51,509 nt of DNA from Lactiplantibacillus brownii (GTDB lineage: Bacteria; Bacillota; Bacilli; Lactobacillales; Lactobacillaceae). The stretch covers positions 1-51,509 of the forward strand of contig NZ_JAVCWF010000003.1 of the NCBI RefSeq assembly GCF_031085375.1, written 5' to 3'. Made by a program: the position numbers and the translations under genes. The stretch's first letter is position 1, and each line of letters opens with the position of its first letter. The notes beneath the pieces are model-generated. The model had not been told where the DNA came from, made no database searches, and saw only the letters and a list, made by a program, of their open reading frames with translations. Below, in pieces: positions 15,935-33,580 of the stretch.

Positions 15935-17018
15935 ATGAATGAACTTACCACAGAAATTATCGCTGCACTAGCCCAAAAGCAAGATTTGGACGAAGTTTTT
16001 CGTCACCACCTCGAAATTGCGATTAACCAGCTGCTTCAAACCGAATTGGCAGAGTTTTTGGGTTACGAACGCTACTCATACGCTGGGATTAACACTGGTA
16101 ATAACCGCAACGGCAGTTATGAGCGCTCGTTTGATACGAAGTACGGCCAACTTAACTTAACCATTCCTCGAGATCGCAATGGCCGGTTTGAAAATCATAC
16201 CTTGCCAGCCTACGGTCGGCACAGTGATAATTTAGAAACAACGGTCATTCAGTTGTATACCAAGGGAATTACCACTGCTGAAATTGCCGAACTCATTGAG
16301 AAAATGTACGGTGCTCACTACTCCAAAGCCACGGTTTCCAACATGACTAAAGCCGTCAATGAACAGGTTCAAGCTTTCCAGCAATCACAATATGCGGCCA
16401 TCTTCTTAGATGCCACTTACTTGCCGTTAAAGCGGGATACCGTTCAAAAAGAAGCCGTTCATATTGCGATTGGCATTCGTCCAGATGGTACGAAAGAAGT
16501 GCTGAACTACCAAGTGGCGCCAACGGAATCGACTGGAATCTGGACTGAACTGCTGGGAACCTTGATCAAGCAGGGCGTTAAAGATGTGCTGTTGTTTGTG
16601 GGGGTTAGTTGGTTTGGATGAAGGCTTGAATCGGCATTTTCCTAAAGCCAAACGACAACGTTGCCTGGTTCATGTTGGGCGGAATCTGATGAACAAAGTT
16701 CGCGTAAAAGACCGCAAGGCCGTGATCAGTGACTTTAAACAAGTTCATCGGGCCGCCAACCGTGAAGCAGCCGAACTGAAACTGAATGAGTTCGCCAACA
16801 ACTGGCATCAGACCTATCCCAAATTAATCAAAGATCTGCTTAAAATGCCGAATTTACTCACTTTCATGGACTTTCCACCAGCTATCCGGCAATCACTATA
16901 CTCCACTAACCTGATTGAGAACTTTAATAAGCATCTCAAGCGCACCACCCACCACAAAGAACAATTTCCAACGGAAGATTCACTGGATCGCTTCCTGGTT
17001 TCTCAGTTTAATGTTTAT
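15935..17018 (+). pseudogene. IS256-family (mutator-type) transposase, frameshifted and 3'-truncated
   Basis: A DDE transposase. The first part (15935-16600) has typical QTELAEFLGYERYSY and NRNGSYERSF near the N-terminus and the first catalytic Asp in AIFLDATYLPLKRD (residue ~152). At about 16600 a few bases are missing: the codons expected for the second catalytic Asp (usually in an SDGL/ADGL motif before VGLDE) are lost and the frame shifts. The second part (16603-17018) continues with LVGLDEGLNRHFPKAKRQRC, then NLIENFNKHLKR holding the catalytic Glu region. The gene stops at 17018 where the IS30-type element begins. It cannot make active transposase. Confidence 0.85.
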
Positions 17019-18061
17019 GGTAGATTGCAAATTTAATCCGAATTTTTGGACAAATTTGTCAGCATAACCCGATACGGTGTTTGCCAGTCGAGTATTTTAA
17101 GCGGTCGCTGGTTAATTTAGAGTAACGTCGTCGTTAAATCTTGAGCACTAATGTGCTCAAAACGAGTCCCTTTAGGATAAAAATAACGTAAATTCCGATT
17201 AAAGCGTTCATTACTACCACGTTCAGCTGGCGTATAAGCATGGCAGTAATAGGTCTTAATACCATATTGTGATTCAAGTGATACTAGCCCACTAAACTCA
17301 GTGCCACGGTCCACAGTAAAGCTGTGCACCGGACCATTAAAAGTGGTTAGGAACTTAGTTAGTGCTTCATTAACAGTCGCTGTCGTCCGATCTTTTAACC
17401 GGTATGCCCAAAGGAACCGTGATTTGCGATCGATTAAAGTTAATAAAACTGCCTTACTATGCCCACGAGGACCAACGACTGTATCTAGTTCAAAATCGCC
17501 GATGCGATTACGTTGATTAATCATCATGGGACGCTGTTCAATTGATCGCCCCAAAGATTGATTATATTTGGATCGTTGGTCAACGTTACGCCGTTGGCGT
17601 ACGCCATGTTCAGGTAGATCATTCAAGGAGAAACCAATTCTCCCCTGATTTAGCCAATTATAAATAGATTTAGTAGCTAGTTTAAATTCGTGAGCAATCA
17701 TTCCTGGTGACCAGCTTAGACGTAAATGGTTGAGAATTTTTTGCTTTAACTCATCGCTCAGCTTAGTTTTCCGACCACATCGTGATCGCTTGTATTCGGC
17801 ATCTGTTTGTGCTAATTCAGCCTGATAAGGTTGACATCGAGATAATTCATAAGAAATTGTTGACGGTGATCGGTTCAGCCGAACGCCCATTTGGATATTG
17901 GACAGCCCTAGTTCACAAAAGGTTTCGATTTTAATTCGTTCGGAATAGGTTATACTAGACAAAAGATCAGCTCCTAAAAGATGGGTTTGTGGTAAACACC
18001 ATTTTAAAGGAAGCTGATCTTTTTTGTCCGAACAGCGTTCGGATTAATTTTACAATCTACC
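17019..18061 (-). mobile_element. ISLpl1-like IS30-family element, copy 1
   Basis: 1043 bp, the length I recall for ISLpl1. Terminal repeats GGTAGATTGCAAATTTAATC (17019-17038) and its near-inverse ending ACAATCTACC (18061). Nearly identical to the copy at 24635-25677, with two differences seen (near 17070 and at 17119). It is inserted in the tail of the IS256-type transposase gene. Confidence 0.9.
17033..17962 (-). pseudogene. IS30-family transposase with nonsense mutation
   Basis: Same gene as the intact 309-codon copy at 24649-25578, but a C-to-T change creates TAA at 17119-17117, ending the protein after 281 residues (17117-17962). The N-terminal helix-turn-helix (LSNIQMGVRLNRSPSTISYELSR) and the catalytic core (FELDTVVGPRGHSKAV, FTVDRGTEFSG, AYTPAERGSNERFNRNLRYF with the final Glu) lie before the stop, so only the last 28 residues are lost. 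Activity might be reduced or absent; this cannot be decided from sequence. A second change alters one residue in the lost tail (TPYR instead of TPYQ). Confidence 0.85.
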
Positions 18062-18104
18062 TACAATTTAACAAGTCTCACCAAAATTGTCAATTTAAAT
18101 CGAT

Positions 18105-18605
18105 TCACCACGGCAATTCAACGCTAATGTGCGCATTAAAGTCTTGCTGGCGCTTTAGTTTGGCTAACCGGGCGGCCTGCCGCTCTTGATAGCCCTGAGC
18201 AACAAACGTGTATTCTGGTTTATCAGCGACTAACAGTGGTAATTCAATATTACGGTCCGTCACCACGAACGTTGAAAAGCAGGTCAATCCCAAAAACCGT
18301 TCGCCGGTCTTCAAGTGTTCACCAATAATTTTAGTAAATACCTCGATTGAGCGGTGACCAACGCCCGAAACGTAAGATTCCGCACACATTGAGTCTTGTA
18401 ACCGAAACGGCAATAAAAAATTGACCTGATCGACTGACACGGTCACCGTCTCAATTCGAGCCACTCGCGATGCGGCAATCGATGAATTATCATCGATAGT
18501 CGCCAAGATTTTTCCGCCGAAAACCGTGTCGTGCTCATTCAAGTCAGCTGAAAACACACGGTGATTGCTAATTGATAAAGTCTGTGAAATATGAATTGGT
18601 TCCAT
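18105..18605 (-). CDS. Hotdog-fold acyl-CoA thioesterase
   Basis: A 166-aa YciA/BFIT-like thioesterase. It has the family start with HRVFSADLNEHDTVFGGKILATIDDNSSIAASRVAR: the NEHDTVFGGK segment with catalytic Asn/Asp, then VSVDQVNFLLPFRLQDSMCAESYVSGVGHRSIEVFTKI. It hydrolyses acyl-CoA (perhaps acyl-ACP) to free fatty acid and CoA in the cytosol. The C-terminal ~30 residues are charged (RQAARLAKLKRQQ). The gene is alone on its transcript within the composite segment. The sequence is GC-richer than the plasmid backbone, which suggests a chromosomal origin with the neighbouring fab genes. Confidence 0.88.
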   Translation of the reverse strand: MEPIHISQTLSISNHRVFSADLNEHDTVFGGKILATIDDNSSIAASRVARIETVTVSVDQVNFLLPFRLQDSMCAESYVSGVGHRSIEVFTKIIGEHLKTGERFLGLTCFSTFVVTDRNIELPLLVADKPEYTFVAQGYQERQAARLAKLKRQQDFNAHISVELPW

Positions 18606-18811
18606 GTCTGCACCCCGTCATCTTTAATTATTTTTATTTATATCACTGCAAACGACCTACAATGTGATTAAAACAGACTAGCCAGCTCGATTGTTGTTCG
18701 GACACGTCCTTCCTGCTACGACCACCGAAACCGACTGCTTTTATCCTTATGTCATCGTCGGCTTTGATTCCGATTCAAGACACATCGTTAGAATGTGATC
18801 AACCGCCACAA
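18606..18811. other. Intergenic gap between thioesterase and lysR, nothing recognised
   Basis: Separates two minus-strand genes. No ORF or clear hairpin is seen; it should hold the thioesterase promoter. Confidence 0.35.
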
Positions 18812-19699
18812 TTAATCTGAAAGTGATTGGCTATACTTCGTCGCAAACGCCCAAAATTTAGCAACCACGGCAGCGTGATTATCTGGACGCTTCATGAAAG
18901 CCATCTGACTGCGAATAGTAGGCGTCAGTGGAACTGCTTTAATGTTGTCAAAACCAGTGAGATCAAATGACCGCGCCATGACAACCGAGACACCATCACC
19001 CTGATTCAGCATTTCTAAAATGAGATCAATTCGTTGACCATCATAAACCATCTGTGGCGTATGCATTTTTTGAAATACCGAAAACAACGGGTTATCTTCA
19101 CCGATGGTATCTTTCAATAATAAAATTGATTCATGTGCCAGCATCGGCAGACTAATCTCAGCTTGTTGCGCCAACGGATCGTCTTTCGGAACAAGGACCA
19201 CAAACTGATCGGTCTCATTCAATAAAACGTCATAATTATTGGGTTGATCCCCGAAAATCCGTGTAAATACAATGTCGACATTCGTATGATCCAGTGCATG
19301 CGCTAACCGATCGACACTCGCCTCACTAAATTGTAATTTCACTTCCGGATACCGCTTCATAAATGCCGTGATAATATGAAAAGCTTGGTATTGTGCTAAA
19401 GATGGTAGTCCCTGAACAACCAGCGACTGCGCATTATGAGCGGTATTAGCGGCCAGAACTTGTTGTAGCTGACGCTCTTCGCGCAGAATTGCTTGGGCCC
19501 GTGGCAATAATTGTTGCCCAACCCGTGTTAACGTGACTTGCCGATGCGCACGTTCAAATAATTGGACCTGCCAATCGCGCTCTAAAGCCATAATGTACTT
19601 TGAAATGGTCGACTGTGACAAAAACATGCGTTCAGCACTGCGACTATAGTTCTGGGTCGTGGCAAGGTCAACAAACACTGCCAATTTCCGTGTTTCCAT
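18812..19699 (-). CDS. LysR-family transcriptional regulator
   Basis: A 295-aa LysR-type regulator. The N-terminal winged helix is clear: LAVFVDLATTQNYSRSAERMFLSQSTISKYIMALERDWQVQLFERAHRQVTLTRVGQQLLPRAQAIL contains the AE-x-x-x-S-Q-x-x-x-S pattern. Residues ~90-295 are the periplasmic-binding-like effector domain (VVQGLPSLAQYQAFHI, DIVFTRIFGD). The ligand is unknown. It is divergent from the DUF554 gene (gap 19700-19825), the classic arrangement in which LysR regulators control the divergent neighbour. The gap should contain its operator, but I cannot point to a defined T-N11-A box with confidence. Confidence 0.92.
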   Translation of the reverse strand: METRKLAVFVDLATTQNYSRSAERMFLSQSTISKYIMALERDWQVQLFERAHRQVTLTRVGQQLLPRAQAILREERQLQQVLAANTAHNAQSLVVQGLPSLAQYQAFHIITAFMKRYPEVKLQFSEASVDRLAHALDHTNVDIVFTRIFGDQPNNYDVLLNETDQFVVLVPKDDPLAQQAEISLPMLAHESILLLKDTIGEDNPLFSVFQKMHTPQMVYDGQRIDLILEMLNQGDGVSVVMARSFDLTGFDNIKAVPLTPTIRSQMAFMKRPDNHAAVVAKFWAFATKYSQSLSD

Positions 19700-19825
19700 A
19701 ATTAACCCTCTTCTAACTATTCCTATTTAGAATAGTTTACCACATATTCAGAATTGTTCTTATCCGAAACAAGCTCTAAACTAATAGCTGTTGTTTTTAT
19801 CAATTAAATATTGAGGAGGGCTTGC

Positions 19826-20550
19826 GTGCCAATTGGAATTATTACTAACGTGTGTGCGATCTTTTTCGGGGGTATTGTGGGCGCATTGACCGGCAAACGA
19901 ATGTCACAACGTTTAAAAGATGGGCTGAATATGTCCTTTGGGATCTGTTCCATGTGTATGGGATTTACGCGATTGCACCACTAAAAAATCTAGCGGCGGT
20001 CATCTTTGCCGTTATTATCGGAACAGGTATTGGATTGCTTTGCCATTTGGGAACTGCAATCAATCACGGCGCTGCCGCGATGCAACGTTTCATTTCACGG
20101 TTTGTCAAAGCACCAGCAACTTTTGAGAAACAGGCTTTTGAACAGACAATGGTCACGGTAATCGTATTATTTTGTGCCAGTGGAACTGGTATTTACGGGA
20201 CTTTAACTGAAGGGATGAACGGCGACGCCACAATTTTGATTTCCAAATCGATTCTGGACTTCTTTGCTGCGGTAATTTTCGGTGCTAACTTAGGGTTAGT
20301 TGTTTCCTTAATTGCTGTTCCCCAACTAATCATCCTGACAGCTTTATTCTTAGTCGCTCACCTAGTCTTTCCCTTGACCACTCCTGACATGATTCTAGAT
20401 TTCAAAGCGGTCGGTGGTATTTTAATGGTTGCCAGCGGCTTTCGCATTATTGCCGTCAAGATGTTTCCGACCGCCGATATGATTCCGATGATGGTCGTTA
20501 TCATGCCGATTTCATGGTTATGGATGAATTTTGTATTGCCATTATTATAG
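19826..20550 (+). pseudogene. DUF554 membrane protein, frameshifted
   Basis: The family start is visible from GTG 19826 (GAGGAGGG at 19813-19820): PIGIITNVCAIFFGGIVGALTGKR, then MSFGICSMCMG. At 19961-19963 one base is missing (ATG-GG-ATT), and the rest of the protein, IYAIAPLKNLAAVIFAVIIGTGIG to the stop at 20550, continues in another frame. The reconstructed product would be about 241 aa with six or so membrane helices and repeated GTGIG-type motifs, normal for DUF554. Function unknown; such proteins are integral membrane. An internal start at 19852 gives a 232-aa ORF with a wrong N-terminus. It could be a real mutation or a sequencing slip in a short G run. Confidence 0.8.
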
Positions 20551-20573
20551 ATAAATTAATTGAAGGATAAATT

Positions 20574-20621
20574 AAAAAGCAGTTCTGAGCCCACAATTAT
20601 AGCTTGCTCAGAACTGCTTTT
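20574..20621. terminator. Bidirectional terminator between DUF554 and the fab cluster
   Basis: AAAAAGCAGTTCTGAGC (20574-20590) pairs with GCTCAGAACTGCTTTT (20606-20621). A and T runs flank the stem, so it can stop the DUF554 transcript and the convergent fab transcript. Confidence 0.85.
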
Positions 20622-20744
20622 AGTCAGCACGTAGAAGGCTTGCAATAGCAGGTCAACCAGTCGGCTGATAATAAAATCCAGTGGCCATTGTTCACTAAAC
20701 TTAAAAAAGAGCGCACTAAAGTTAATACCAACCACGCACTCCAA

Positions 20745-21296
20745 TCAGCCAACCGACAAGGGACGAGCCAAAAATCCCTCGTGGGTCGCAGGCAATTCTA
20801 ACGGCGTCAACTGGTATAACTGTGTTTGATAGCACGCTAGTCCACGTTGTAAATCAAGAACCTCGACACGGCGGGGCGCATGGGTCAAGCCACAGCCCAC
20901 TAACTTTAATACCGCTTCTTTAGCCGTCCAAAGTTGCCACCCTAACCGATAACGATCTTGCACCGATAAAGCCTGTAATAGCTGCCATTCCGCCGATGTA
21001 AAGGCTCGCCGAATGGCAGTCACATCATATGGACGGACCTGTTCAACATCAATCCCCAGAGGTCCCGGACCGACCGCCACCATCACTAACTGGTGCGTGT
21101 GACTAACACTAACACCTAATCGAGGATGACTTGGAAAATAGGGCTGTCCCAATCGATGATAAGCTAATGGTACCGATAACACTTGCTGAATTAATTGGCG
21201 ACTCACGGTTCGCTGAGTGACCCGTCGCATTTTTTTAGAAACATCGACCGGCATCTGAAGCCACTGCCGTTTAAAGACAACTTGAGTGATTGGCAT
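20745..21296 (-). CDS. Sfp-type 4'-phosphopantetheinyl transferase
   Basis: A 183-aa PPTase that would transfer phosphopantetheine from CoA to the Ser of acyl carrier protein. The family motifs are present in order: GVSVSHTHQLVMVAV, then GIDVEQV (residue ~80, metal-binding Asp and Glu) and WTAKEAVLKLVG (residue ~124, the W-x-x-K-E-A-x-x-K signature). The size is that of short Sfp/HetI enzymes. The start overlaps the stop of the fabDI chimera by one base (TAATG, 21294-21298), so it is translationally coupled to the cluster. From memory this is also its place at the end of the L. plantarum chromosomal fab operon. The larger second cluster lacks a PPTase, so this gene may serve both AcpPs. It appears intact. 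Confidence 0.9.
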   Translation of the reverse strand: MPITQVVFKRQWLQMPVDVSKKMRRVTQRTVSRQLIQQVLSVPLAYHRLGQPYFPSHPRLGVSVSHTHQLVMVAVGPGPLGIDVEQVRPYDVTAIRRAFTSAEWQLLQALSVQDRYRLGWQLWTAKEAVLKLVGCGLTHAPRRVEVLDLQRGLACYQTQLYQLTPLELPATHEGFLARPLSVG

Positions 21297-22471
21297 TAAC
21301 TTAAGTGGACCCCTTTATCCACGTGTACCACGTCCCCGGTCATTCCAGTCGAGAGATCGCTTAATAAAAAGGCAGCCACGTTGCCGATCTCACGCGTTTT
21401 TACCGGTTCTCCATCAACTGTCATACTGCGAGATAATTTTAATAATTGCTGATGCTCATGAATACCCGTTACCGCCAACGTTTTGACTGCTCCGGCTGAA
21501 ATTGCATTCACGCGGACTTGTTGTGGTCCAAGGTCACGTGCCAAGTAACGCACATTTGCTTCCAACGCGGCCTTAGCAACCCCCATCATATTGTAATTTG
21601 GTACGGCTCGCTCTGATCCAAAATACGTCAACGTTACGAGACTGGCTCCTGGTTTCAGCATTGGCCGAGCTGCTCGGGCAACTGCAATCAGCGAATACGC
21701 ACTAATATTTTGTGCCAAATCATATCCAGCTTTCGTGGTATTCACAAAATCACCTTCTAACGTTGCTTTATCCGCATAAGCAATCGCATGGATAATCCCA
21801 TCGATGACACCATACCGTTGTTTAATGCTTGCAAATGCCCGATCAACATTGTCATCATCAGCAACATCACAGGCAATTAACGGCGTGTGTGAAGCCACCG
21901 CAACGTCTAATGGGACCACCCGTTTAACGCCGTGTGTTTTTAAATAGGTTCGCGCAGCTTGAATACCAGATGCATCGCCACCAATAACAATTTGATCAGC
22001 TAGATTGTAATTAGCGGGATACGCAACCCCCACTGCTTGGGCACTTTGACAAGCGGCTGCAACCAGTGCCGGCGTTACCCTCAACGCCGCGACCATCTCC
22101 CCGGGATGCTGTAATCCCGCTCGTTGCATATATCTAGCCCGATCGGCAACTAACTTCAAGCCATCAGCAAATGGCAGGACGCCAGCTGCAATCAATGCGG
22201 CATACTCACCAAGGCTCAATCCTGCTAACACGGTCGGACACTCATTAAGCAACGCTGTTAAAGCACGATATAACCCCATATTCATCGCTGTAATTGCAAC
22301 CGGCATCCGTTGAGCATCATCGATCCAATCAGCAGTTACCCGCAGATCCCAGTCCAACACTTGATTAGCTTCGTCAATCGTGGCTTGATACGCTGGTAAC
22401 GTTTGATAAAGATCGGCCCCCATATCGGCAAACTGTTGTCCTTGACCACTGAATAAGATTGCCGTTTTCAT
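21296..22471 (-). CDS. In-frame FabD-FabI chimera left by a deletion
   Basis: A 391-aa protein made of two incomplete enzymes. Residues 1 to ~197 are FabD (malonyl-CoA:ACP transacylase): FSGQGQQFADMG, the nucleophile Ser86 in GLSLGEY and His195 in VASHTPL. From Cys201 the sequence is FabI (enoyl-ACP reductase), matching FabI residue 62 onward: CDVADDDN, then the catalytic Tyr-x6-Lys (YNMMGVAK, residues 293-300) and VDKGVHLS at the end. Missing are the last ~105 residues of FabD, the first 61 of FabI with the glycine-rich NADH loop, and every gene that lies between them in the complete cluster (fabG to accA, about 6.5 kb by comparison). Neither half should be active, but the frame is open and coupled to the PPTase gene. 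Confidence 0.9.
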   Translation of the reverse strand: MKTAILFSGQGQQFADMGADLYQTLPAYQATIDEANQVLDWDLRVTADWIDDAQRMPVAITAMNMGLYRALTALLNECPTVLAGLSLGEYAALIAAGVLPFADGLKLVADRARYMQRAGLQHPGEMVAALRVTPALVAAACQSAQAVGVAYPANYNLADQIVIGGDASGIQAARTYLKTHGVKRVVPLDVAVASHTPLIACDVADDDNVDRAFASIKQRYGVIDGIIHAIAYADKATLEGDFVNTTKAGYDLAQNISAYSLIAVARAARPMLKPGASLVTLTYFGSERAVPNYNMMGVAKAALEANVRYLARDLGPQQVRVNAISAGAVKTLAVTGIHEHQQLLKLSRSMTVDGEPVKTREIGNVAAFLLSDLSTGMTGDVVHVDKGVHLS

Positions 22472-22474
22472 AAC

Positions 22475-22723
22475 TTAGTCCTCGCTAGTTTCCTGATGAG
22501 TCGCCACATAATCAACTAGATCACCAACCGTGGCTAACGCGTCATCCGTTTCGATTTCGATATCATATTCGTCTTCGATCTTATCGATCACTTCAAAAAC
22601 GTCCAGACTATCAAGTGCTAAGTCTTCGGTAAAGTTCGTTGTCATCGTAATCTTGTCAGCATCCACGTCTAATTGTTCCACGATCATCTTTTTAATTTGG
22701 TCAAAAATTTCAGTTTTAGTCAT
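22475..22723 (-). CDS. acpP: Acyl carrier protein
   Basis: An 82-aa acidic four-helix carrier. The phosphopantetheine Ser lies in DLALDSLDVFE (residue ~38), the invariant DSL motif. The core from QLDVDADKITMT to EDEYDIEIET is nearly identical to the second AcpP at 29457-29699, while the termini differ. GAGGAAT lies upstream of the ATG at 22723. It holds the growing acyl chain in the cytosol for all Fab enzymes. The stop is 3 bp before the fabDI chimera start, so it belongs to the same operon. With only FabZ, FabH and AcpP intact, this cluster cannot run a full elongation cycle by itself. Confidence 0.95.
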   Translation of the reverse strand: MTKTEIFDQIKKMIVEQLDVDADKITMTTNFTEDLALDSLDVFEVIDKIEDEYDIEIETDDALATVGDLVDYVATHQETSED

Positions 22724-22779
22724 TGTTGATTCCTCCAGAATTTTTAAATTAATTTTAAATGCTTGATTTCAGTTATCAA

Positions 22780-23766
22780 TTAATACTCAATTACGGCACT
22801 ACCGACGGATAACCCGCCGCCAAAACCGGTAAACACCAGCTTGTCACCACGTTGAACTTGCTTTTGGGCAACCATTTCAGCAAATAGAATCGGTTCACTG
22901 GCTGCCGCAGTATTGCCATACTGTGCAATGTTCATCGGTAATTGTTCCGTAGCTAAGTTTAATTTTTGACCAACGCTCTTAACAATACGTGCGTTGGCCT
23001 GATGAAGCACAAATGCTTTAATATCACTCGACTCGAGCCGTGCCTGCATCAACGCCTGCTCAATTGAGTGGGGCACTTGTTTAGTGGCAAAGTCATAAAC
23101 CCGCCGACCATTCATCTGAAAGGCCCAGCGGTTAGAACCTGCACCATCAGTCCGTGTTGACCACGGATTCACCTGAGGCTGCTGTCCCGCCGTTAAATAA
23201 TGCCCGTCAGCGCCAAACGTCGCGTAATGACCGCCCAGCCAGTGCCCAGTGGCCGTATTAGGCTTAGCAGTAATCAATAGACCACCCGCACCATCACCAA
23301 ATAAAACGGCAGTGCTACGATCATGCCAGTCCACTAACCGACTCAAGGTCTCGCTACCGATTAACAAAGCGGTCTGACCCGGTTGTAAGTATTGGTGAAC
23401 CAACTGCATCCCATAAACAAAGCCCGCACATGCAACATTGATGTCAAAGGCAATTGCTTTTTCAGCCCCAATCGCTGCCTGTACTTGAGGAGCCGTCGCC
23501 GGTGTCAAATAATCCGGTGACATGGTTGCCACGATGATCAAATCAATCGCCGTCGCCGCTAGCCGACTTTGCTGCAACAACTGCTGGGCAACTGAAACAG
23601 CTAAACTCGTCGTTGTCTCATCGGTCGCGACGTGGCGAGAACGAATTCCCGTTCGCTGCTTGATCCAATCATCAGAAGTCGCCATCAGTTGCGTTAGTTC
23701 TTGATTCGTGACTTTGGTCGTCGGCAGTGCCTTAGCACTCGCTAAAATCGAAAAATTAGTTGTCAT
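22780..23766 (-). CDS. fabH: 3-oxoacyl-ACP synthase III (FabH)
   Basis: A 328-aa initiating condensing enzyme joining acetyl-CoA (or other acyl-CoA) with malonyl-ACP. The catalytic triad is visible: Cys in NVACAGFVYGM (residue ~112), His in LHQANARI (~254) and Asn in YGNTAAAS (~284). GVFGGGLSVGSAV-like C-terminal glycines are in place as GFGGGLSVGSAVIEY. The length is standard. The ATG at 23766 has only a weak ribosome site. The gap to fabZ holds a stem-loop (23776-23826) where the second cluster has a MarR-type regulator gene. Protein similar to, but clearly diverged from, the second FabH at 28409-29392. Confidence 0.95.
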   Translation of the reverse strand: MTTNFSILASAKALPTTKVTNQELTQLMATSDDWIKQRTGIRSRHVATDETTTSLAVSVAQQLLQQSRLAATAIDLIIVATMSPDYLTPATAPQVQAAIGAEKAIAFDINVACAGFVYGMQLVHQYLQPGQTALLIGSETLSRLVDWHDRSTAVLFGDGAGGLLITAKPNTATGHWLGGHYATFGADGHYLTAGQQPQVNPWSTRTDGAGSNRWAFQMNGRRVYDFATKQVPHSIEQALMQARLESSDIKAFVLHQANARIVKSVGQKLNLATEQLPMNIAQYGNTAAASEPILFAEMVAQKQVQRGDKLVFTGFGGGLSVGSAVIEY

Positions 23767-23775
23767 GGTTGGTTA

Positions 23776-23826
23776 CAATTCGGCAATGCTTTTAAAAAAC
23801 TTTCCCAAACGACAATCGCCGAATTG
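23776..23826. promoter_or_regulatory. Stem-loop between fabZ and fabH
   Basis: CAATTCGGC (23776-23784) pairs with GCCGAATTG (23818-23826). It lies in the 74-bp intergenic gap of the minus-strand operon just before the fabH start, without a T run. It could attenuate or stabilise the message; its role is unknown. Confidence 0.45.
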
Positions 23827-23840
23827 CTATTACCACCTTT

Positions 23841-24284
23841 CTATTTTGAATCAGTTGCACCAACGATAAAGGTTAAATCAGTTGTGCAGGCTGCCTTGTC
23901 ACCGACCATCGCCTGACAACTCACCGTTCCCATGTTGGACCGTTGTTTGACCATTTGGACATGCAACTTCAAGACATCACCGGGACGGACAATTTTGCGG
24001 AACTTGGCATCCTTAATGGCGCCAAGATAAGCCGTCTTACCAGCAAACTTTTCAGATTTCAAAATCAGAATCGACGCGGCTTGCGCCAAAGCTTCAATAA
24101 TCAACACGCCCGGCATGACCGGGTTACCGGGAAAGTGCCCTTGGAAAAATGACTCATTGATCGTGACATTTTTCGTCACCACGATCGATTCACCCGGATT
24201 TAATTCATCCACCCGGTCCATGAATAAAATTGGGTACCGGTTGGGGATTAATTGCATAATTTCACTTGCTTCTAACACACTCAT
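23841..24284 (-). CDS. fabZ: 3-hydroxyacyl-ACP dehydratase (FabZ)
   Basis: A 147-aa hotdog dehydratase. The active-site His and Glu are in FFQGHFPGNPVMPGVLIIEA (residues ~50 and 64), as in classical FabZ. LIPNRYPILFMDRV near the N-terminus and KFRKIVRPGDVLKLHV are family landmarks. It removes water from 3-hydroxyacyl-ACP; some lactic acid bacteria FabZ/FabN enzymes also isomerise the double bond and so make unsaturated chains, which cannot be read from sequence here. AAAGGAG precedes the ATG at 24284. It is the first gene of this minus-strand cluster, behind a promoter overlapped by a palindrome (24501-24541). Confidence 0.94.
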   Translation of the reverse strand: MSVLEASEIMQLIPNRYPILFMDRVDELNPGESIVVTKNVTINESFFQGHFPGNPVMPGVLIIEALAQAASILILKSEKFAGKTAYLGAIKDAKFRKIVRPGDVLKLHVQMVKQRSNMGTVSCQAMVGDKAACTTDLTFIVGATDSK

Positions 24285-24500
24285 AGTTAGTCGCTCCTTT
24301 CACGACGTTTGGGAATGGCGTTAGGTTAATCGTCCGGCCGAATCTTGTCAATTGATTTCAGCAGATTAATTTACGGCATGTTACATTTTTTAGTAGTCAA
24401 ATCCCGGTAAGCTGGGCTCTAATCGAGCTTTATTTTTTTGCGAAAATTTCTTGACGATCCATTTTTTGCGGTCATAATCCGTCAACGAACTGGCACAGTT

Positions 24501-24541
24501 TAGCAATTTGACTATAAAGTTTATAATCAAATTGCTAACAA
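24501..24541 (-). promoter_or_regulatory. Promoter and FabT-like palindromic operator of the collapsed fab cluster
   Basis: TAGCAATTTGA (24501-24511) and TCAAATTGCTA (24527-24537) form an 11-bp perfect inverted repeat with a 15-bp spacer. On the minus strand TTGTTA (24541-24536), a 17-bp spacer and TTTATA (24518-24513) form a promoter within it. The ATTTGA...TCAAAT halves resemble FabT sites. It is about 220 bp before fabZ. Confidence 0.6.
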
Positions 24542-24634
24542 GTTTTGACTTCAGCAAGCAGTGATACAATCTGTTCAACTGTCACTAGCTTAAATGCACG
24601 CAAAAAAAAATTGCATCTAAGAACTAGCATTCTT

Positions 24635-25677
24635 GGTAGATTGCAAATTTAATCCGAATTTTTGGACAAATTTGTCAGCATAACCTGATACGGTGTTTGC
24701 CAGTCGAGTATTTTAAGCGGTCGCTGGTTAATTTGGAGTAACGTCGTCGTTAAATCTTGAGCACTAATGTGCTCAAAACGAGTCCCTTTAGGATAAAAAT
24801 AACGTAAATTCCGATTAAAGCGTTCATTACTACCACGTTCAGCTGGCGTATAAGCATGGCAGTAATAGGTCTTAATACCATATTGTGATTCAAGTGATAC
24901 TAGCCCACTAAACTCAGTGCCACGGTCCACAGTAAAGCTGTGCACCGGACCATTAAAAGTGGTTAGGAACTTAGTTAGTGCTTCATTAACAGTCGCTGTC
25001 GTCCGATCTTTTAACCGGTATGCCCAAAGGAACCGTGATTTGCGATCGATTAAAGTTAATAAAACTGCCTTACTATGCCCACGAGGACCAACGACTGTAT
25101 CTAGTTCAAAATCGCCGATGCGATTACGTTGATTAATCATCATGGGACGCTGTTCAATTGATCGCCCCAAAGATTGATTATATTTGGATCGTTGGTCAAC
25201 GTTACGCCGTTGGCGTACGCCATGTTCAGGTAGATCATTCAAGGAGAAACCAATTCTCCCCTGATTTAGCCAATTATAAATAGATTTAGTAGCTAGTTTA
25301 AATTCGTGAGCAATCATTCCTGGTGACCAGCTTAGACGTAAATGGTTGAGAATTTTTTGCTTTAACTCATCGCTCAGCTTAGTTTTCCGACCACATCGTG
25401 ATCGCTTGTATTCGGCATCTGTTTGTGCTAATTCAGCCTGATAAGGTTGACATCGAGATAATTCATAAGAAATTGTTGACGGTGATCGGTTCAGCCGAAC
25501 GCCCATTTGGATATTGGACAGCCCTAGTTCACAAAAGGTTTCGATTTTAATTCGTTCGGAATAGGTTATACTAGACAAAAGATCAGCTCCTAAAAGATGG
25601 GTTTGTGGTAAACACCATTTTAAAGGAAGCTGATCTTTTTTGTCCGAACAGCGTTCGGATTAATTTTACAATCTACC
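24635..25677 (-). mobile_element. ISLpl1-like IS30-family element, copy 2 (intact)
   Basis: 1043 bp with the same terminal repeats as copy 1 (GGTAGATTGCAAATTTAATC at 24635; ...ACAATCTACC ending at 25677). It lies directly upstream of the collapsed fab cluster's promoter region and in the same orientation as copy 1. Confidence 0.92.
24649..25578 (-). CDS. IS30-family transposase
   Basis: A 309-aa DDE transposase. The N-terminal helix-turn-helix is SNIQMGVRLNRSPSTISYEL, followed by a second one around LSWSPGMIAHEFKLATKSIYNWL. The catalytic triad is Asp in IGDFELDTVVGP (~170), Asp in HSFTVDRGTEFSG (~228) and Glu in AERGSNERFNRNLRYF (~267). The full length matches IS30-family members of lactobacilli. 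The stop lies 14 bp inside the left terminal repeat. It should be active and could mobilise both copies and the DNA between them. Confidence 0.93.
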   Translation of the reverse strand: MSSITYSERIKIETFCELGLSNIQMGVRLNRSPSTISYELSRCQPYQAELAQTDAEYKRSRCGRKTKLSDELKQKILNHLRLSWSPGMIAHEFKLATKSIYNWLNQGRIGFSLNDLPEHGVRQRRNVDQRSKYNQSLGRSIEQRPMMINQRNRIGDFELDTVVGPRGHSKAVLLTLIDRKSRFLWAYRLKDRTTATVNEALTKFLTTFNGPVHSFTVDRGTEFSGLVSLESQYGIKTYYCHAYTPAERGSNERFNRNLRYFYPKGTRFEHISAQDLTTTLLQINQRPLKILDWQTPYQVMLTNLSKNSD

Positions 25678-25749
25678 TAATAAGCACAACAAAACTTAAA
25701 AACATAAGAGCAAGCAGGTGGATCAAGGCGTGCAACGTTAACCAGTTGT

Positions 25750-27424: not shown

Positions 27425-27469
27425 CTGGCGTGATACTTGATCAGTTTTGCAACCGAAAGGAAGAAAGCA

Positions 27470-27916
27470 ATGAGTGTATTAGATGCAGCTAAAATTATGG
27501 ATCTAATTCCCAATCGATATCCAATTTTGTTTATGGATAAAGTCGATGAATTAAATCCGGGTGAATCGATCGTTTGTACCAAAAACGTCACAATTAACGA
27601 GGAATTTTTCCAAGGCCATTTTCCTGGAAATCCAGTTATGCCCGGCGTATTAATTATCGAGTCGCTTGCTCAAGCAGCTTCGATTTTAATTCTCAAGACG
27701 GAAAAATATCGTGGCAAGACAGCTTACCTTGGTGCCATTGATAATGCCAAATTCAGAAAAGTTGTTCGTCCGGGTGATGTTTTGAAGCTACATGTTGAAA
27801 TGGAAAAACAGCGTGACAACATGGGTAAAGTTAAATGCGCTGCCAAAGTTGAAGACAAAGTGGCTTGTTCCGCCGACTTAACGTTCATTGTTCCAAATCC
27901 AGATAAAAAGATTTAG
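27470..27916 (+). CDS. fabZ: 3-hydroxyacyl-ACP dehydratase (FabZ1)
   Basis: A 148-aa dehydratase with the intact active site GHFPGNPVMPG (His50) and Glu64 in VLIIESLAQ. NRYPILFMDKVDEL and KFRKVVRPGDVLKLHVEME are conserved. It catalyses the dehydration step of each elongation round. ATG 27470 follows AAAGGAAG (27456-27463); in-frame upstream codons lack a site. First gene of the complete 13-gene operon, behind two operator-bearing promoters. It is a close relative of the copy at 23841-24284 and has the same family-specific N-terminus (SVL-A--IM-LIPNRYPILFMD), so the two clusters share an ancestor. Confidence 0.94.
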   Translation: MSVLDAAKIMDLIPNRYPILFMDKVDELNPGESIVCTKNVTINEEFFQGHFPGNPVMPGVLIIESLAQAASILILKTEKYRGKTAYLGAIDNAKFRKVVRPGDVLKLHVEMEKQRDNMGKVKCAAKVEDKVACSADLTFIVPNPDKKI

Positions 27917-27944
27917 ACCGAGAGTGAATGAGGAGATTTAATGA

Positions 27945-28412
27945 ATGAATTCGACGAGTGATGAAATTAAAGATGATTACAATTTCATAAGTGAGGCTTT
28001 GATAGATATTTATGATCAGATAATGCGAATTGAAGAGAGTGAAATTCGAAAGAGTCGATTTAAGGACATCACTGCAAAAGAATTGCATCTTATTCATACA
28101 ATTGGCCTTCATGATCGGAAAATAACTTCAGAAGTATCACGTGTTTTGAAGTTAAGTAAAGGGACGTTAACTGCCAATCTTAATAACCTTGAGAAAAAAG
28201 GCTACATCATTCGAATGATTAACCAACAGGACCGTCGGATTATCAACCTTGGGCTGACGAGTAAGGGCAGATTGCTTTATCGTGCCCACTATGCGTTCCA
28301 TCGCCAGTTGGTTGAAAGTTGCTTAAAGGGATTTGACGGATCCGATATTCGAAAGATGCGGCAGGCATTGGTTAACGTTGAGAAATTTATTGACGAGGTT
28401 TCATCAAAATGA
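27945..28412 (+). CDS. fabT: MarR-family regulator, FabT-like
   Basis: A 155-aa winged-helix protein placed between fabZ and fabH, the position of fabT in streptococci and lactobacilli. The DNA-binding part is ITSEVSRVLKLSKGTLTANLNNLEKKGYIIRMINQQDRRIINLGLTSKG (residues ~63-110), with the MarR wing D-R-R. The N- and C-terminal helices would form the dimer and bind acyl-ACP. Known FabT proteins repress the fab operon when long-chain acyl-ACP or exogenous fatty acid is abundant. GGAG (27932-27935) precedes the ATG, and the stop overlaps fabH by 4 bases (ATGA). Likely targets are the palindromes at 27307-27333, 27407-27419 and possibly 24501-24537. The name is by context and family. Confidence 0.82.
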   Translation: MNSTSDEIKDDYNFISEALIDIYDQIMRIEESEIRKSRFKDITAKELHLIHTIGLHDRKITSEVSRVLKLSKGTLTANLNNLEKKGYIIRMINQQDRRIINLGLTSKGRLLYRAHYAFHRQLVESCLKGFDGSDIRKMRQALVNVEKFIDEVSSK

Positions 28413-29392
28413 AATTTGAAGATTTTAAAATAGTAGCTACGGCGAGTCAAGTGCCTGAGCGAGTTGTTGATAATCATGAACTTTCAACGATGATGGACAC
28501 CTCTGATGAGTGGATCGTTAAGCGAACGGGAATTAAGCGTCGGCATATTGCCGTTACTGAAACTACAAGCTCACTTTGTACCAGCGTTGCTCAGCAATTA
28601 CTTGCTCAAAGCGAACTGCAGCCTGACGATATTGATTTGATCGTTGTTGCAACCATGTCACCTGATTATTTAACACCTTCTACCAGTGCAACTGTGCAAG
28701 GAAACATTGGTGCTACTAAGGCGATGGCGTTTGATATTGATGCAGCCTGCTCAGGGTTTGTTTATGGATTGAAGCTAATTCGGCAAATGCTGATGGCAGA
28801 TCATAAAAAGAATGCCATTTTAATTGGTGGTGAAACGTTAAGTAAGCTTTTGGATTGGTCTGATCGATCCACTGCCGTTTTGTTTGGTGATGGTGCCGGT
28901 GGGGTTTTGGTTACGAACGAGACAACTGCTGATGGGTCATATCTTGCAGATAGTATGACAACCCTTGGCAGTCTTGGTGGCTATTTAACGGCTGGTAAGA
29001 CTGGTCAGCCATCACCATTTTCATCAGATCATCAACCATTCAAGCCGTTCTTTAAGATGAATGGTCGGCGTGTTTATCAATTCGCGGTTAAGAATGTTCC
29101 CGATTCGGTTAACCATGCATTATCGGTGGCTAAATTAGCACCGACAGATGTTGACCACTATGTCCTTCATCAAGCGAACGTTCGAATTGTCGAGCGGATT
29201 GCGGATGAACTCGAGCTGCCAATGACCAAATTTCCGGTTAACATCGGTGAATTTGGGAATACCGCAGCTGCCAGCGAACCGATCTTGTTGGATCAGCTAG
29301 TAAAACACAACATTATCAAACGTGGCGATACAATTGCGTTAAGTGGCTTCGGTGGTGGCTTAACAGTTGGAACCATGTTACTGACTTATTAA
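28409..29392 (+). CDS. fabH: 3-oxoacyl-ACP synthase III (FabH)
   Basis: A 327-aa initiating ketoacyl synthase. Cys114 in DAACSGFVYG is the nucleophile; His in VLHQANVRI (~250) and Asn in FGNTAAASEP (~280) complete the triad. The C-terminal GFGGGLTVGTMLLTY is normal. It condenses acetyl-CoA with malonyl-ACP, setting the rate and the starter unit of synthesis. Its ATG overlaps the fabT stop, so it is translationally coupled to the regulator. Compared with the FabH at 22780-23766 the order and motifs are the same, but the sequence differs throughout and is less GC-rich, so the two clusters come from different lineages rather than from a recent duplication. Confidence 0.95.
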   Translation: MKFEDFKIVATASQVPERVVDNHELSTMMDTSDEWIVKRTGIKRRHIAVTETTSSLCTSVAQQLLAQSELQPDDIDLIVVATMSPDYLTPSTSATVQGNIGATKAMAFDIDAACSGFVYGLKLIRQMLMADHKKNAILIGGETLSKLLDWSDRSTAVLFGDGAGGVLVTNETTADGSYLADSMTTLGSLGGYLTAGKTGQPSPFSSDHQPFKPFFKMNGRRVYQFAVKNVPDSVNHALSVAKLAPTDVDHYVLHQANVRIVERIADELELPMTKFPVNIGEFGNTAAASEPILLDQLVKHNIIKRGDTIALSGFGGGLTVGTMLLTY

Positions 29393-29456
29393 CGATATTG
29401 CTCATAGAAAATTAATTAATCAAATTAAAAACAAACAACTATATTGGAGGAAATTA

Positions 29457-29699
29457 ATGATGACTAAAGAAGAAGTATTTAACAAGGTAAAGGATATTAT
29501 CGTGGACCAATTGGATGTTGATGCAGACAAAATTACGATGACAACGAACTTTACCGAAGACTTAGCACTTGATAGTCTGGACGTTTTTGAAGTGATCGAT
29601 AAGATCGAAGACGAATATGATATCGAAATTGAAACTGACAAAGGTATGGAAACTGTTGGTGATTTGGTAGATTACGTTTTTAAACAACAAACTAAGTAG
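29457..29699 (+). CDS. acpP: Acyl carrier protein
   Basis: An 80-aa acidic carrier protein (79 if the second ATG at 29460 is used; GGAGG at 29446-29450 suits both). Ser40 in LALDSLDVFE receives phosphopantetheine. The middle 45 residues are almost identical to the AcpP of the other cluster, the ends differ. It carries the acyl chain between FabD, H, F, G, Z and I. There is a 64-bp gap from fabH with its own strong ribosome site, usual for the highly expressed acpP. No PPTase is encoded in this operon; the one at 20745-21296 or a chromosomal AcpS would activate it. Confidence 0.95.
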   Translation: MMTKEEVFNKVKDIIVDQLDVDADKITMTTNFTEDLALDSLDVFEVIDKIEDEYDIEIETDKGMETVGDLVDYVFKQQTK

Positions 29700-29708
29700 G
29701 TTGATACT

Positions 29709-30623
29709 TTGAGATTAAGTTATTTATTTAGCGGTCAGGGAAAACAATTTCCCGAGATGGGGCAGGACCTTTACCAACAAGAGGTAATTTATCGTCAAAC
29801 CATTGAGGAAGCTTCTGCTGCACTTAATATGGATTTGAGTAAATCAGAGGTTATGGATGATCCCAATAATGTCCAGGTCGCCATTGTCGCAATGAGTACC
29901 GGTATTTTTCGGATTCTTGAAAAAGAATTCGGATCACCAGTGGGCGCTGCTGGATTGAGCCTTGGCGAATATAGTGCAATTATAGCTGCTCGTGGTGTTC
30001 AGTTTGCTGATGCGCTAAAGCTGGTTCGTGATCGTTCTCGCTATATGGATAAAGCAGGAAAAGATCATCCGGGTAAAATGGCAGCTGTTCTTAAGGCAAA
30101 CGCTGATTTAGTCCGTGAAGCCTGCCGGGTTGGTGCTCAAGCAGGTGATATTTACCCAGCTAATTTTAATACCGATTCGCAGATTGTTATCGGGGGTACA
30201 CAGGCCGGTTTGGACGCAGCAACCACTTATCTTCATGAACATGGGATTAAGCGGGTTGTTCCGTTAAAAATGACGGTTGCTTCTCATACTCCGTTTATGC
30301 AAGAAGCAAGTGATTTATTAGCTGATCGAATTCAAACTGTTGACTTTCATGAGTTTAAGTTTCCTGTTATTAGTAATACAACAATGACCCAATTTGATGT
30401 TGCCAATATGAAACAGACGCTGGTTGATCAGTTGGTTAATCCGACCCATTTCATTGATTGCCTCAAAGCCTTAGTCAATTTGGGCAGTGATACGATGATT
30501 GAAATCGGTCCGGGTGATACGTTGATGAAGTTTGCAAAATCGTTATCAACTGTTGACACACTACATATTGATAGTGTTAAGACATTGAATGATGTCAGAT
30601 CAAATGTAAAGTTGGTGAAATAA
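29709..30623 (+). CDS. fabD: Malonyl-CoA:ACP transacylase (FabD)
   Basis: A 304-aa transacylase moving malonyl from CoA to AcpP. The oxyanion motif FSGQGKQFPEMG (residues 7-18), nucleophile Ser84 in AGLSLGEYSA, the Arg in RDRSRYM (~110), His in VASHTPFM (~193) and Gln/Gly near MIEIGPGDTL are all present. The start appears to be TTG 29709, since the sequence from LSYLFSGQG onward is the family start and no ATG or GTG is suitably placed. It is 9 bp after acpP and overlaps fabG by one base (TAATG). This is the complete version of the enzyme half preserved in the chimera at 21296-22471. Confidence 0.95.
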   Translation: MRLSYLFSGQGKQFPEMGQDLYQQEVIYRQTIEEASAALNMDLSKSEVMDDPNNVQVAIVAMSTGIFRILEKEFGSPVGAAGLSLGEYSAIIAARGVQFADALKLVRDRSRYMDKAGKDHPGKMAAVLKANADLVREACRVGAQAGDIYPANFNTDSQIVIGGTQAGLDAATTYLHEHGIKRVVPLKMTVASHTPFMQEASDLLADRIQTVDFHEFKFPVISNTTMTQFDVANMKQTLVDQLVNPTHFIDCLKALVNLGSDTMIEIGPGDTLMKFAKSLSTVDTLHIDSVKTLNDVRSNVKLVK

Positions 30624-31354
30624 TGAGTGAAGCAAAACAAATTGCATTAGTAACCGGTGCCGCAAAGGGGATCGGATTAGCGATTGCCAAAAGGCTTTCA
30701 AAAGATGGTATGACAGTTGTTTTAAATACGCACCATGCTTTAGATGATGATGTGAAGCAGCAATTAAGTGATCAGGGAGTTACTTTTGATAATTTGGTTG
30801 GCGACGTGGCCAACGAAGATGATGCCCAAGCAATGATTGACAGTTTGCTGGAAAAATATGGTCAAATTGATGTTTTAGTAAACAATGCGGGCATTAACCG
30901 CGACAAATTATTGAGCCGCACTAAGCTGTCGGATTTTAAAGCAGTTATTGACACAAATTTAATTGGCGCGTTTAACATGACCAAGTTTGCAATGAAGTCA
31001 ATGCAAAAGAGTCGTTCTGGTGTCATTGTCAACATTTCCAGTATTTCAGGCTTGCATGGTAATATTGGGCAGGCTAATTATTCCGCTAGTAAAGCTGGAC
31101 TAGTCGGTTTGACAAAAACAGCCGCTCGTGAAGGGGCTTTACGTAATATTCGTTGTAATGCTGTTGCTCCGGGAATGATTGAAACCGATATGACTGGAAA
31201 AATGAGCGAACGTCGTCAAAAAGAATTCACTGATCAAATTCCGTTGAAACGATTTGGCCGACCGGAAGAAATTGCCGACGCAGTTTCGTTCTTGGTGCAT
31301 AATGATTATTTAACAGGTCAAGTCATCACAATTGATGGTGGATTAACAATTTAA
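30623..31354 (+). CDS. fabG: 3-oxoacyl-ACP reductase (FabG)
   Basis: A 243-aa short-chain dehydrogenase. The NADPH loop is TGAAKGIGLA (residues 11-20), the NNAG motif is at 87-90, Ser140 lies in VNISSISG, and Tyr153/Lys157 in NYSASKAGL form the catalytic pair. It reduces 3-oxoacyl-ACP to 3-hydroxyacyl-ACP. The C-terminal FLVHNDYLTGQVITIDGGL is standard. It is coupled to fabD by a one-base overlap and followed by fabF after 20 bp with AAGGAG. The collapsed cluster has no fabG of its own; this is the only copy in the window. Confidence 0.95.
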   Translation: MSEAKQIALVTGAAKGIGLAIAKRLSKDGMTVVLNTHHALDDDVKQQLSDQGVTFDNLVGDVANEDDAQAMIDSLLEKYGQIDVLVNNAGINRDKLLSRTKLSDFKAVIDTNLIGAFNMTKFAMKSMQKSRSGVIVNISSISGLHGNIGQANYSASKAGLVGLTKTAAREGALRNIRCNAVAPGMIETDMTGKMSERRQKEFTDQIPLKRFGRPEEIADAVSFLVHNDYLTGQVITIDGGLTI

Positions 31355-31374
31355 TTGCTAAAGGAGATAAATTC

Positions 31375-32604
31375 ATGAACAGAGTCGTTGTTACTGGAAT
31401 GGGTGCCGTTACCCCACTCGGAAATGATGTTGATAGTTTTCTGACCAACTTATTAAATTCGAAGGTTGGCATTAATAAGATTACCAAATTTGATGCAGAA
31501 GCAACTGGAATTTCTGTTGCCGGTGAAGTCAAGGACTTTGACGCAATGAAGCGCTTGGACCGAAAAACCGCAAAGCGAAATGATCTGTTTGTCAATTACG
31601 CGCTATATAGTGCTCACGAAGCGATGGAAATGGCTGGCTTGAATGAAGACAATATCAAACCAGAGGAACTAGGCGTCATTTATGGTTCAGGAATTGGTGG
31701 TTTGACGACCATTCAAGAGCAAGTCATCAAGATGCACGACAAAGGACCTAAGCGGGTATCACCTCTCTTTGTGCCTAATTCCATTGTTAATATGGCTGCC
31801 GGTGATATTTCAATTGCCTTCAAGGCCCGTAACACCAGTCAAGCTATTGTGACTGCCTGTTCGTCAGGGACTAATGCAATTGGCAATGCCTTTGAATATA
31901 TTAAAGAAGGAAAAGCTGAGGCAATGATTGCAGGCGGAACTGAAGCTTCAGTAAATGAAATTGGTATTTCAGGATTTGCTGCAATTACGGCATTATCGAA
32001 GACCGAAGATCCAATGAAAGCGTCAATTCCGTTTGATAAAGACCGAAATGGTTTTGTAATGGGTGAAGGTTCTGGAACCCTGGTCTTGGAAAGTTATGAC
32101 CATGCCAAAGCACGTGGCGCTAAGATCCTTGCTGAGATTGTTGGTTATGGAACGACTAGTGATGCTTACCATATGACAGCGCCTGATCCAGAGGGAACCG
32201 GCGCTAAACGGGCAATGCAAATGGCCATTGACGAGGCTGAAATTGATGCCACTGATGTTGACTATATTAACGCGCACGGAACAAGTACTCATGCCAATGA
32301 CAGCGCTGAATCCAAGGCAATCAATGTGGTCTTCTCAAAGAATGATCATGTTAAGGTAAGCAGTACCAAAGGGATGACTGGCCACGCATTGGGCGCAGCC
32401 GGTGCGATTGAGGCTGTTGCAACAATCGGCGCAATTCAAAGAAACCAAATGCCGGTAAATGTGGGTGTTGTTAACCAAGATGAAGAATGTGATGTTGATT
32501 TAGTTGATGACACCAATAAGAAAACAACTGTTAACTATGCAATCAGTAACTCATTTGGATTTGGAGGACACAACGCTGTAATTGCATTTAAGGGATGTGA
32601 TTAA
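31375..32604 (+). CDS. fabF: 3-oxoacyl-ACP synthase II (FabF)
   Basis: A 409-aa elongation condensing enzyme. Cys162 in VTACSSGTNAIG is the nucleophile; His residues in NAHGTSTHAND (~300) and STKGMTGHALGAAG (~338) complete the Cys-His-His active site. VVVTGMGAVTPLG at the start and SFGFGGHNAVIAF at the end are diagnostic. It extends acyl-ACP by two carbons using malonyl-ACP, and in lactic acid bacteria also affects the length of unsaturated chains. AAAGGAG lies upstream of ATG 31375. The accB gene follows after 4 bp. No damage is visible. Confidence 0.96.
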   Translation: MNRVVVTGMGAVTPLGNDVDSFLTNLLNSKVGINKITKFDAEATGISVAGEVKDFDAMKRLDRKTAKRNDLFVNYALYSAHEAMEMAGLNEDNIKPEELGVIYGSGIGGLTTIQEQVIKMHDKGPKRVSPLFVPNSIVNMAAGDISIAFKARNTSQAIVTACSSGTNAIGNAFEYIKEGKAEAMIAGGTEASVNEIGISGFAAITALSKTEDPMKASIPFDKDRNGFVMGEGSGTLVLESYDHAKARGAKILAEIVGYGTTSDAYHMTAPDPEGTGAKRAMQMAIDEAEIDATDVDYINAHGTSTHANDSAESKAINVVFSKNDHVKVSSTKGMTGHALGAAGAIEAVATIGAIQRNQMPVNVGVVNQDEECDVDLVDDTNKKTTVNYAISNSFGFGGHNAVIAFKGCD

Positions 32605-32608
32605 AGTT

Positions 32609-33085
32609 ATGGACGAGAAGGAAATTGAACGGTTATTAGATAAGTTTGATAAATCATCACTCAAAAACTTTGAGTTAACGCAGGATGATTTTAAATTGGC
32701 ATTGAGTAAACGTGAGGCTGGTGACCAAGTTGTTGTAGGTGAGCCAACATTAACAACACCTAATGACACTGTTAGCGCACCTAAACCGACGTCAAAACAA
32801 TCACAGAATGAATCAACAACGCCAGCTGTTAATTCGGCAGCTGATGTCGCCGAAATTAAAGCACCGCTGGTAGGTGTTATCTATTTCGCGCCAAGTCCCG
32901 ATAAGCCTGCCTTTAAAAAGCAGGGCGATAAAGTTGAAAAAGGGGACGTTGTCTGCGTTATTGAAGCAATGAAGATGATCAATGAAGTTAAGAGTGATGT
33001 TTCAGGAACAATTTCAAATATCTTGGTTGAGGATGGCAGTATGGTTGAGTATGATCAACCACTGTTTCAAGTTAAGAAGGGATAG
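32609..33085 (+). CDS. accB: Biotin carboxyl carrier protein of acetyl-CoA carboxylase
   Basis: A 158-aa BCCP. The biotinylated Lys122 sits in VIEAMKMINEV, the invariant motif, within a C-terminal barrel (residues ~83-158). A Ser/Thr/Pro-rich linker (~45-80) joins it to an N-terminal helix starting MDEKEIERLLDKFDKSSLKNF, typical of AccB. This fixes the start at 32609, although the AAGGGA site is a little far upstream; a longer in-frame start at 32582 would overlap fabF and not match the family. It carries carboxyl-biotin from AccC to AccAD. BirA encoded at 11617 on the same plasmid could biotinylate it. Confidence 0.93.
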   Translation: MDEKEIERLLDKFDKSSLKNFELTQDDFKLALSKREAGDQVVVGEPTLTTPNDTVSAPKPTSKQSQNESTTPAVNSAADVAEIKAPLVGVIYFAPSPDKPAFKKQGDKVEKGDVVCVIEAMKMINEVKSDVSGTISNILVEDGSMVEYDQPLFQVKKG

Positions 33086-33091
33086 ATAATA

Positions 33092-33508
33092 ATGACACCC
33101 AACGTAAATGATGTGATTCCCCAACGCTATCCTTTTGAAATGATTGACCGCTTTTTGGATGTTCAAGCAGGTGTTAAGGCAAGATCGGTGAAACTGATTT
33201 CCATTAATGAATGGTTCTTTGCCAACCAGCCGGTTAACCGGTTAGTTGTCCCACGGCCAATTATGATTGAGGCAATGGCTCAGACTGGGGTTGCTGCCAT
33301 TCTGTCATTACCAAAATATCAAGGGAAAAATGTGTTTTTTGGCGGCATAAAAAACGCCACTTTTCAAGATGATTTTCGACCAGGCGACCGGTTAATCTTT
33401 GAAGTGGAAATGAAAAAGCTCAAAATGAACATTGGATTAGGTCACGGATCGATTATTCGAGACGGTCAAGTGATTTGTGAGGCCGACCTGATATTTGCGG
33501 TGGAATGA
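33092..33508 (+). CDS. fabZ2: FabZ-like protein lacking the catalytic histidine
   Basis: A 138-aa hotdog-fold protein in the place where lactobacillus fab operons have a second fabZ. The frame VIPQRYPFEMIDRF and FQDDFRPGDRLIFEVEMKKL match FabZ. In an ungapped comparison with FabZ1, the catalytic stretch QGHFPGNPVMPG becomes ANQPVNRLVVPR: the His is replaced by Gln46, while the Glu (Glu60 in MIEAMAQ) is kept. Classical dehydratase activity is therefore doubtful; a regulatory, structural or altered-substrate role is possible. Many annotations call such genes fabZ. It is tightly packed (6 bp after accB), so it is co-translated with ACC subunits, which hints at a role with them. Confidence 0.8.
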   Translation: MTPNVNDVIPQRYPFEMIDRFLDVQAGVKARSVKLISINEWFFANQPVNRLVVPRPIMIEAMAQTGVAAILSLPKYQGKNVFFGGIKNATFQDDFRPGDRLIFEVEMKKLKMNIGLGHGSIIRDGQVICEADLIFAVE

Positions 33509-33580
33509 GAAACCTGGCTCATTTCGGGAATGAATCCAAATGGCGTTCCAAAACGTTTTTAAGTACAAGAAGGTGAGCAT

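Follow-up and report, generated by a model that had tools for sequence, protein, structure and literature searches.

An in-frame fabD-fabI deletion fusion, most likely inactive, in an IS30-flanked fab operon fragment on a probable brewery-type plasmid of Lactiplantibacillus brownii

An open reading frame of Lactiplantibacillus brownii begins as FabD and ends as FabI. How did this frame arise, does its product work, and was the frame kept by selection? We analyzed it within a window that is the entire contig C3 of the host assembly (51,509 bp; the host genome also has contig C1, of 3,009,648 bp), and we are confident of the overall answer, namely that this is an apparently recent deletion fusion, most likely inactive, within an IS30-flanked fab fragment that a probable plasmid of brewery type has acquired. 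Every part of the locus belongs to a known kind, and the chimera is probably of little importance as a protein. The reference for all comparisons was an intact chromosomal fab operon (locus L081 of genome G005), which we term L. plantarum-like because close protein matches to the two halves of the fusion bear that name (among the matches listed, one L. plantarum-named protein has 98% identity to the FabD half, and several have 97% to the FabI half). The features that the argument needs are as follows.

17018..18063, minus strand: IS30-family element, left copy (transposase ORF of 281 aa; that of the right copy has 309)
18062..24634, no strand given: foreign segment of about 6.6 kb with an internal deletion of 6,350 bp (98.7-98.8% identical to L081)
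19852-20550: DUF554 gene, frame broken relative to L081 (one G fewer in a G run near 19963)
20745..21296, minus strand: PPTase-family gene (PF01648), open; has one base in common with the fusion stop, which is also so in the intact operon
21296..22471, minus strand: FabD(1-198)-FabI(60-252) fusion ORF, 391 aa (open frame; Pfam; alignment)
21876..21884, minus strand: 9-bp direct repeat at the junction, single here (two copies in L081, at 8170-8178 and 14520-14528)
22475..22723, minus strand: acyl carrier protein gene, open (Pfam; comparison with L081)
22780..23766, minus strand: fabH, open (Pfam; comparison with L081)
23841..24284, minus strand: fabZ, open (Pfam; comparison with L081)
24634..25679, minus strand: IS30-family element, right copy, oriented like the left one and 99.8% identical to it
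27437..37333, plus strand: complete brewery-type fab/acc operon

The fusion ORF contains neither a stop nor a frameshift. Pfam places Acyl_transf_1 at residues 6-200 and adh_short_C2 (the enoyl-reductase match) at 166-389, and alignment with L081 in two blocks confirms that FabD is joined to FabI, as had been predicted from the letters of the sequence, while moving the join from about FabD 197 and FabI 62 to FabD 198 and FabI 60; the P-L codons at the join are compatible with both proteins. Absent from the alignment are FabD 199-310 (the last 112 residues) and FabI 1-59, in agreement with the expectation that FabD has lost its C-terminal part and FabI its N-terminal part, the latter of which we take to be nucleotide-binding. 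Ser86, His195, Tyr293 and Lys300 of the fusion lie where they had been placed; the first two (Ser86 being the nucleophile) are presumably the catalytic residues of FabD, and the latter two presumably the Tyr-x6-Lys catalytic pair of FabI.

DNA comparison shows how the two halves came together. Window positions 18062-21884 correspond to 18343-14520 of L081 at 98.7% identity and window positions 21873-24634 to 8181-5421 at 98.8%, both on the same strand, and the 6,350 bp of L081 that lie between these blocks are missing. The original prediction of a single, in-frame loss of an operon core was right in kind and slightly too large in size (about 6.5 kb, against a measured 6.35 kb); the gap in L081 runs from the end of fabD through seven ORFs into the start of fabI, and these ORFs fit the predicted list of lost genes in number and order. 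The deletion is clean: a perfect 9-bp repeat lies at both break ends, one copy of it is kept and there are no extra bases. Repeats of this kind between fabD and fabI are ordinary, because 9-mer sharing is expected even after codon shuffling (codon-shuffled fabI has a mean of 5.0 9-mers in common with fabD); the evidential weight of the repeat lies in its exact position at the breakpoints. Short-repeat-mediated deletion that leaves a fused pseudogene is a known kind of event, and the fusion resembles such cases in its one remaining repeat copy and lack of added bases, but differs from them in being in frame, with two half-enzymes still recognizable. Relative to L081, the operon keeps its gene order and, outside the deletion, the identity given above, but it has lost the fabD-to-fabI stretch and is located on another replicon, with an IS30 copy on either side. 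An origin of the junction by recombination of the window's two fab operons with each other was considered and rejected, because the sides of the junction are 98.7-98.8% identical to L081 and only 67-83% identical to the other operon. The missing stretch (6,341 bp of it as the query) has no copy elsewhere in the host genome, where its matches are confined to the brewery operon (64-68%) and to three chromosomal stretches of less than 80 bp.

The segment around the fusion is foreign to its host, since its 98.7-98.8% identity to G005 contrasts with 80% for one host chromosomal locus (3.6 kb, found in 15 of 21 genomes) and with no more than partial matches of 67-73% and short ones for the flanks of the G005 operon on the host chromosome. 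Two like copies of an IS30-family element bound it (1,046 bp each; 251.9 and 262.4 bits with NF033563, cut-off 80), in direct orientation and 99.8% identical to each other, which is the arrangement of a composite element. The original prediction had read the operon correctly as scarred and had left this setting, an IS30-bounded foreign segment on a likely plasmid, unnoticed. In the Pediococcus damnosus plasmid pL21533-1 (L099), window positions 6229-18063 are matched at 98.2% and 24634-35013 at 99.5% over 10,389 bp, and the two matches meet in a single IS copy common to both, so that plasmid lacks the segment. The simplest order of events would be gain of the segment together with one IS copy, the alternative being its loss in other plasmids. 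Among 72,556 plasmid records, seven match 20745-24284, each over a brewery fabZ only (about 77%). The one-base shift in the DUF554 gene could be decay or a sequencing error in the G run.

The contig itself is probably a plasmid, as suggested by its separation from the chromosomal contig, a MobQ relaxase scoring above its cut-off and long matches to brewery plasmids. Its complete operon runs fabZ, marR-type regulator, fabH, acpP, fabD, fabG, fabF, accB, fabZ2, accC, accD, accA, fabI (fabZ to accC named from an annotated relative, fabI and fabD by Pfam, accD and accA by position only). We compared this operon with 12 named loci, out of 45: seven are 98.9-99.6% identical over 8.9-9.9 kb (L. backii, S. 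malefermentans, L. cerevisiae, L. paucivorans, L. diolivorans, P. damnosus and L. yonginensis) and the remaining five are 66-69% identical. According to passages of two papers (PMC4814128, PMC5000825), a FAS cluster is plasmid-encoded in Pediococcus damnosus and Lactobacillus backii, and the chromosomal FASII of both is incomplete. The host studied here shares with these two species a near-identical cluster and a chromosome whose FASII is likewise incomplete; it differs from them in being a Lactiplantibacillus, apparently other than the L. plantarum-like donor (to judge from the 80% locus), and in having a second, scarred fab operon inserted alongside. The brewery FAS cluster thereby gains a Lactiplantibacillus host. 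Its near-identity in seven named species of five genera (the seven of 12 loci above) goes beyond the two species named in those passages; a chromosomal fab cluster in beer L. plantarum is described in a passage of a further paper (PMC10530735). A biotin ligase gene (11614-12621) and a cyclopropane fatty acid synthase-like gene (12849-14021) lie on the same contig, and both also occur together with the FAS cluster on a brewery plasmid.

In the host genome as a whole, FabD-type matches occur on contig C3 only (n = 2, one of them the fusion), and FabF and FabI matches are likewise confined to it, in a search that covered enoyl reductases of the FabI kind; the brewery cluster is the only place where FabF, FabI and an uncut FabD were found. 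The genome has two PPTase-family matches, neither of which falls in the brewery operon. One of these is on the chromosome, which also has a FabH relative (46%) and a pair of AccC relatives (both 43%; one lies in a frame of 1150 residues); with these but no FabD, FabF or FabI, the chromosomal FASII is incomplete. Loss of the core of the scarred operon was presumably tolerated because the same contig has a complete one. At positions 596014-598658 of chromosomal contig C1 (genome G000), FabH-like and AccC-like genes adjoin on a chromosome without FabD, FabF or FabI matches. Among 20 other genomes of the genus, nine have strong, separate FabD and FabI matches whose starts lie about 6.9 kb apart, and 11 have no match better than 4e-9.

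The fusion is known from one genome only. Neither it nor the deletion was found in those 20 genomes; none of the 72,556 plasmid records matches 601 bp of sequence spanning the junction; and among the best 120 of 8000 protein database matches none spans both halves, the best covering 58% of the fusion. With residues 1-200 alone as the query, the top match is a 310-aa FabD at 98%, and a different fusion, a 388-aa FabD-plus-ACP protein, is listed at 51% (both among the best 120 of 7999). A literature search, judged by titles and the starts of abstracts, found no fabD-fabI fusion. The original prediction had linked absence of the chimera from many genomes with an artefactual junction; the absence was found within these searches, but it shows rarity and does not imply an artefact, because the 9-bp repeat provides a natural mechanism. 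Occurrence in one genome, a short repeat at the junction and a possible homopolymer error nearby, in the DUF554 gene, would all suit an assembly artefact, but a 9-bp repeat would be short for assembly collapse where the contigs reach 3.0 Mb and 51.5 kb, and nowhere else in that assembly does the missing stretch occur; we regard an artefact as extremely unlikely. Whether the fusion works was evaluated with profiles and models. Against the FabI profile NF004748 (NCBIfam) it scores 345.8 bits, missing the curated cut-off of 362 by just 16 bits, and two intact FabI controls pass with 456.4 and 452.0 bits; its match begins at profile position 50 of 252. Against the FabD profile TIGR00128 it scores 150.2 bits, intact FabD controls (226.2 and 217.9) likewise falling under the cut-off of 260.9, and it covers the profile to position 204 of 290, compared with 285 in the controls. 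An active or regulatory product (a truncated FabI that enters tetramers and lowers their activity, or a FabD half that binds malonyl groups) would be in keeping with the open frame, with the presumed catalytic residues kept in both halves and with the matches of both halves to solved structures across their retained parts (FabD chains being matched to about 199-214 of 305-318). However, FabD 199-310 and FabI 1-59 are missing, no protein among the matches listed runs across both halves, and in the AlphaFold model (mean pLDDT 76.6, pTM 0.51) the active-site loops fall below a pLDDT of 50 (191-197, with His195, and 284-293, with Tyr293), a confidence that, coming from an alignment of 42 rows, is weak evidence in either direction. 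We consider such a product highly improbable. Missing parts, scores and model suggest a pair of half-domains whose sites do not work, and after the loss of FabD's C-terminal part and FabI's nucleotide-binding part neither activity is likely to have survived; the fusion is most likely a dead remnant of the deletion.

Was the frame nevertheless selected? The fusion stop and the PPTase start overlap by one base (TAATG), as do the corresponding ORFs of L081, which upholds the prediction that the frame is preserved and coupled to the PPTase gene. The further proposal, that selection may have held the frame so as to keep the PPTase expressed, is not supported, and the frame can be explained without it: in L081, all six repeat pairs between fabD and fabI that reach 9 bp agree in codon phase, as do 10 of the 14 that reach 8 bp, so that a repeat-mediated deletion is expected to be in frame by default. 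Relative to G005, the FabI half has no synonymous and three non-synonymous changes, and the FabD half two of each. Those three amino-acid changes in the FabI half occur in 6, 14 and 8 of 119 aligned FabI proteins and are thus standing variants, indicating that there has been too little change since the deletion from which to read selection; for the FabD half the alignment included a single close FabD, too few to rate its changes. Reading selection from the pN/pS of the fusion was accordingly rejected as uninformative with so few changes. For fabZ, fabH, acpP and the PPTase gene, pN/pS relative to G005 is 0.00-0.12 (PPTase 0.11), and most of this divergence may predate the transfer. A scan for promoters and terminators did no better than on shuffled sequence (9 against 7.6, and 7 against 4.6). 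A selected translational bridge, whereby ribosomes traverse the fusion as far as the PPTase start that overlaps it and the enzyme so made helps to activate the acyl carrier proteins of the plasmid operon, draws on the intact overlap, on the open PPTase gene with its low pN/pS and on a brewery operon with no PPTase-family match of its own. We nonetheless find it unlikely: besides the default phase of the repeats, a further PPTase-family gene is present on the host chromosome, the divergence is too small for selection after the deletion to show, and the plasmids of P. damnosus and L. backii that have the cluster (PMC4814128, PMC5000825) match 20745-24284 over fabZ only, at about 77%. A broader version holds the scarred operon to be a trimmed accessory module, its core removed as redundant, its fabZ, fabH, acpP and PPTase genes kept and the fusion ORF serving as a translated bridge; if true, it would give the complete cluster extra capacity for initiation, dehydration and acyl carrier protein activation in a host that lacks a complete chromosomal FASII, but we rate this as quite unlikely. 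That the fusion and these four genes are all open speaks against a pure relic; the DUF554 frameshift in the same segment speaks for one, unless it is a sequencing error.

We therefore favor the apparently recent, most likely inactive deletion fusion, which could have arisen as follows. A piece of an L. plantarum-like chromosome (fab operon, PPTase gene and 3' flank) would have moved, with IS30 copies at its sides, into a brewery-type plasmid in which a single IS30 copy already occupied this position. Either in the donor or on the plasmid, the 6,350 bp would have been lost through slippage or illegitimate recombination at the 9-bp repeats in fabD and fabI, the common codon phase of the repeats would have made the join in frame, and the complete fab operon on the same contig would have allowed the core to be lost; the adjoining fabZ, fabH, acpP and PPTase genes may still be expressed. 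The locus would then offer an early-stage view of how a mobile replicon can take up redundant fatty-acid genes and have them trimmed, and the in-phase repeat count advises caution more generally, in that in-frame fusions made by short-repeat deletion need not mean selection. Upstream of fabZ, a 39-bp stretch (24500-24538) also matches both L081 and itself in inverted orientation, at 92%; this inverted repeat may be a regulatory site.
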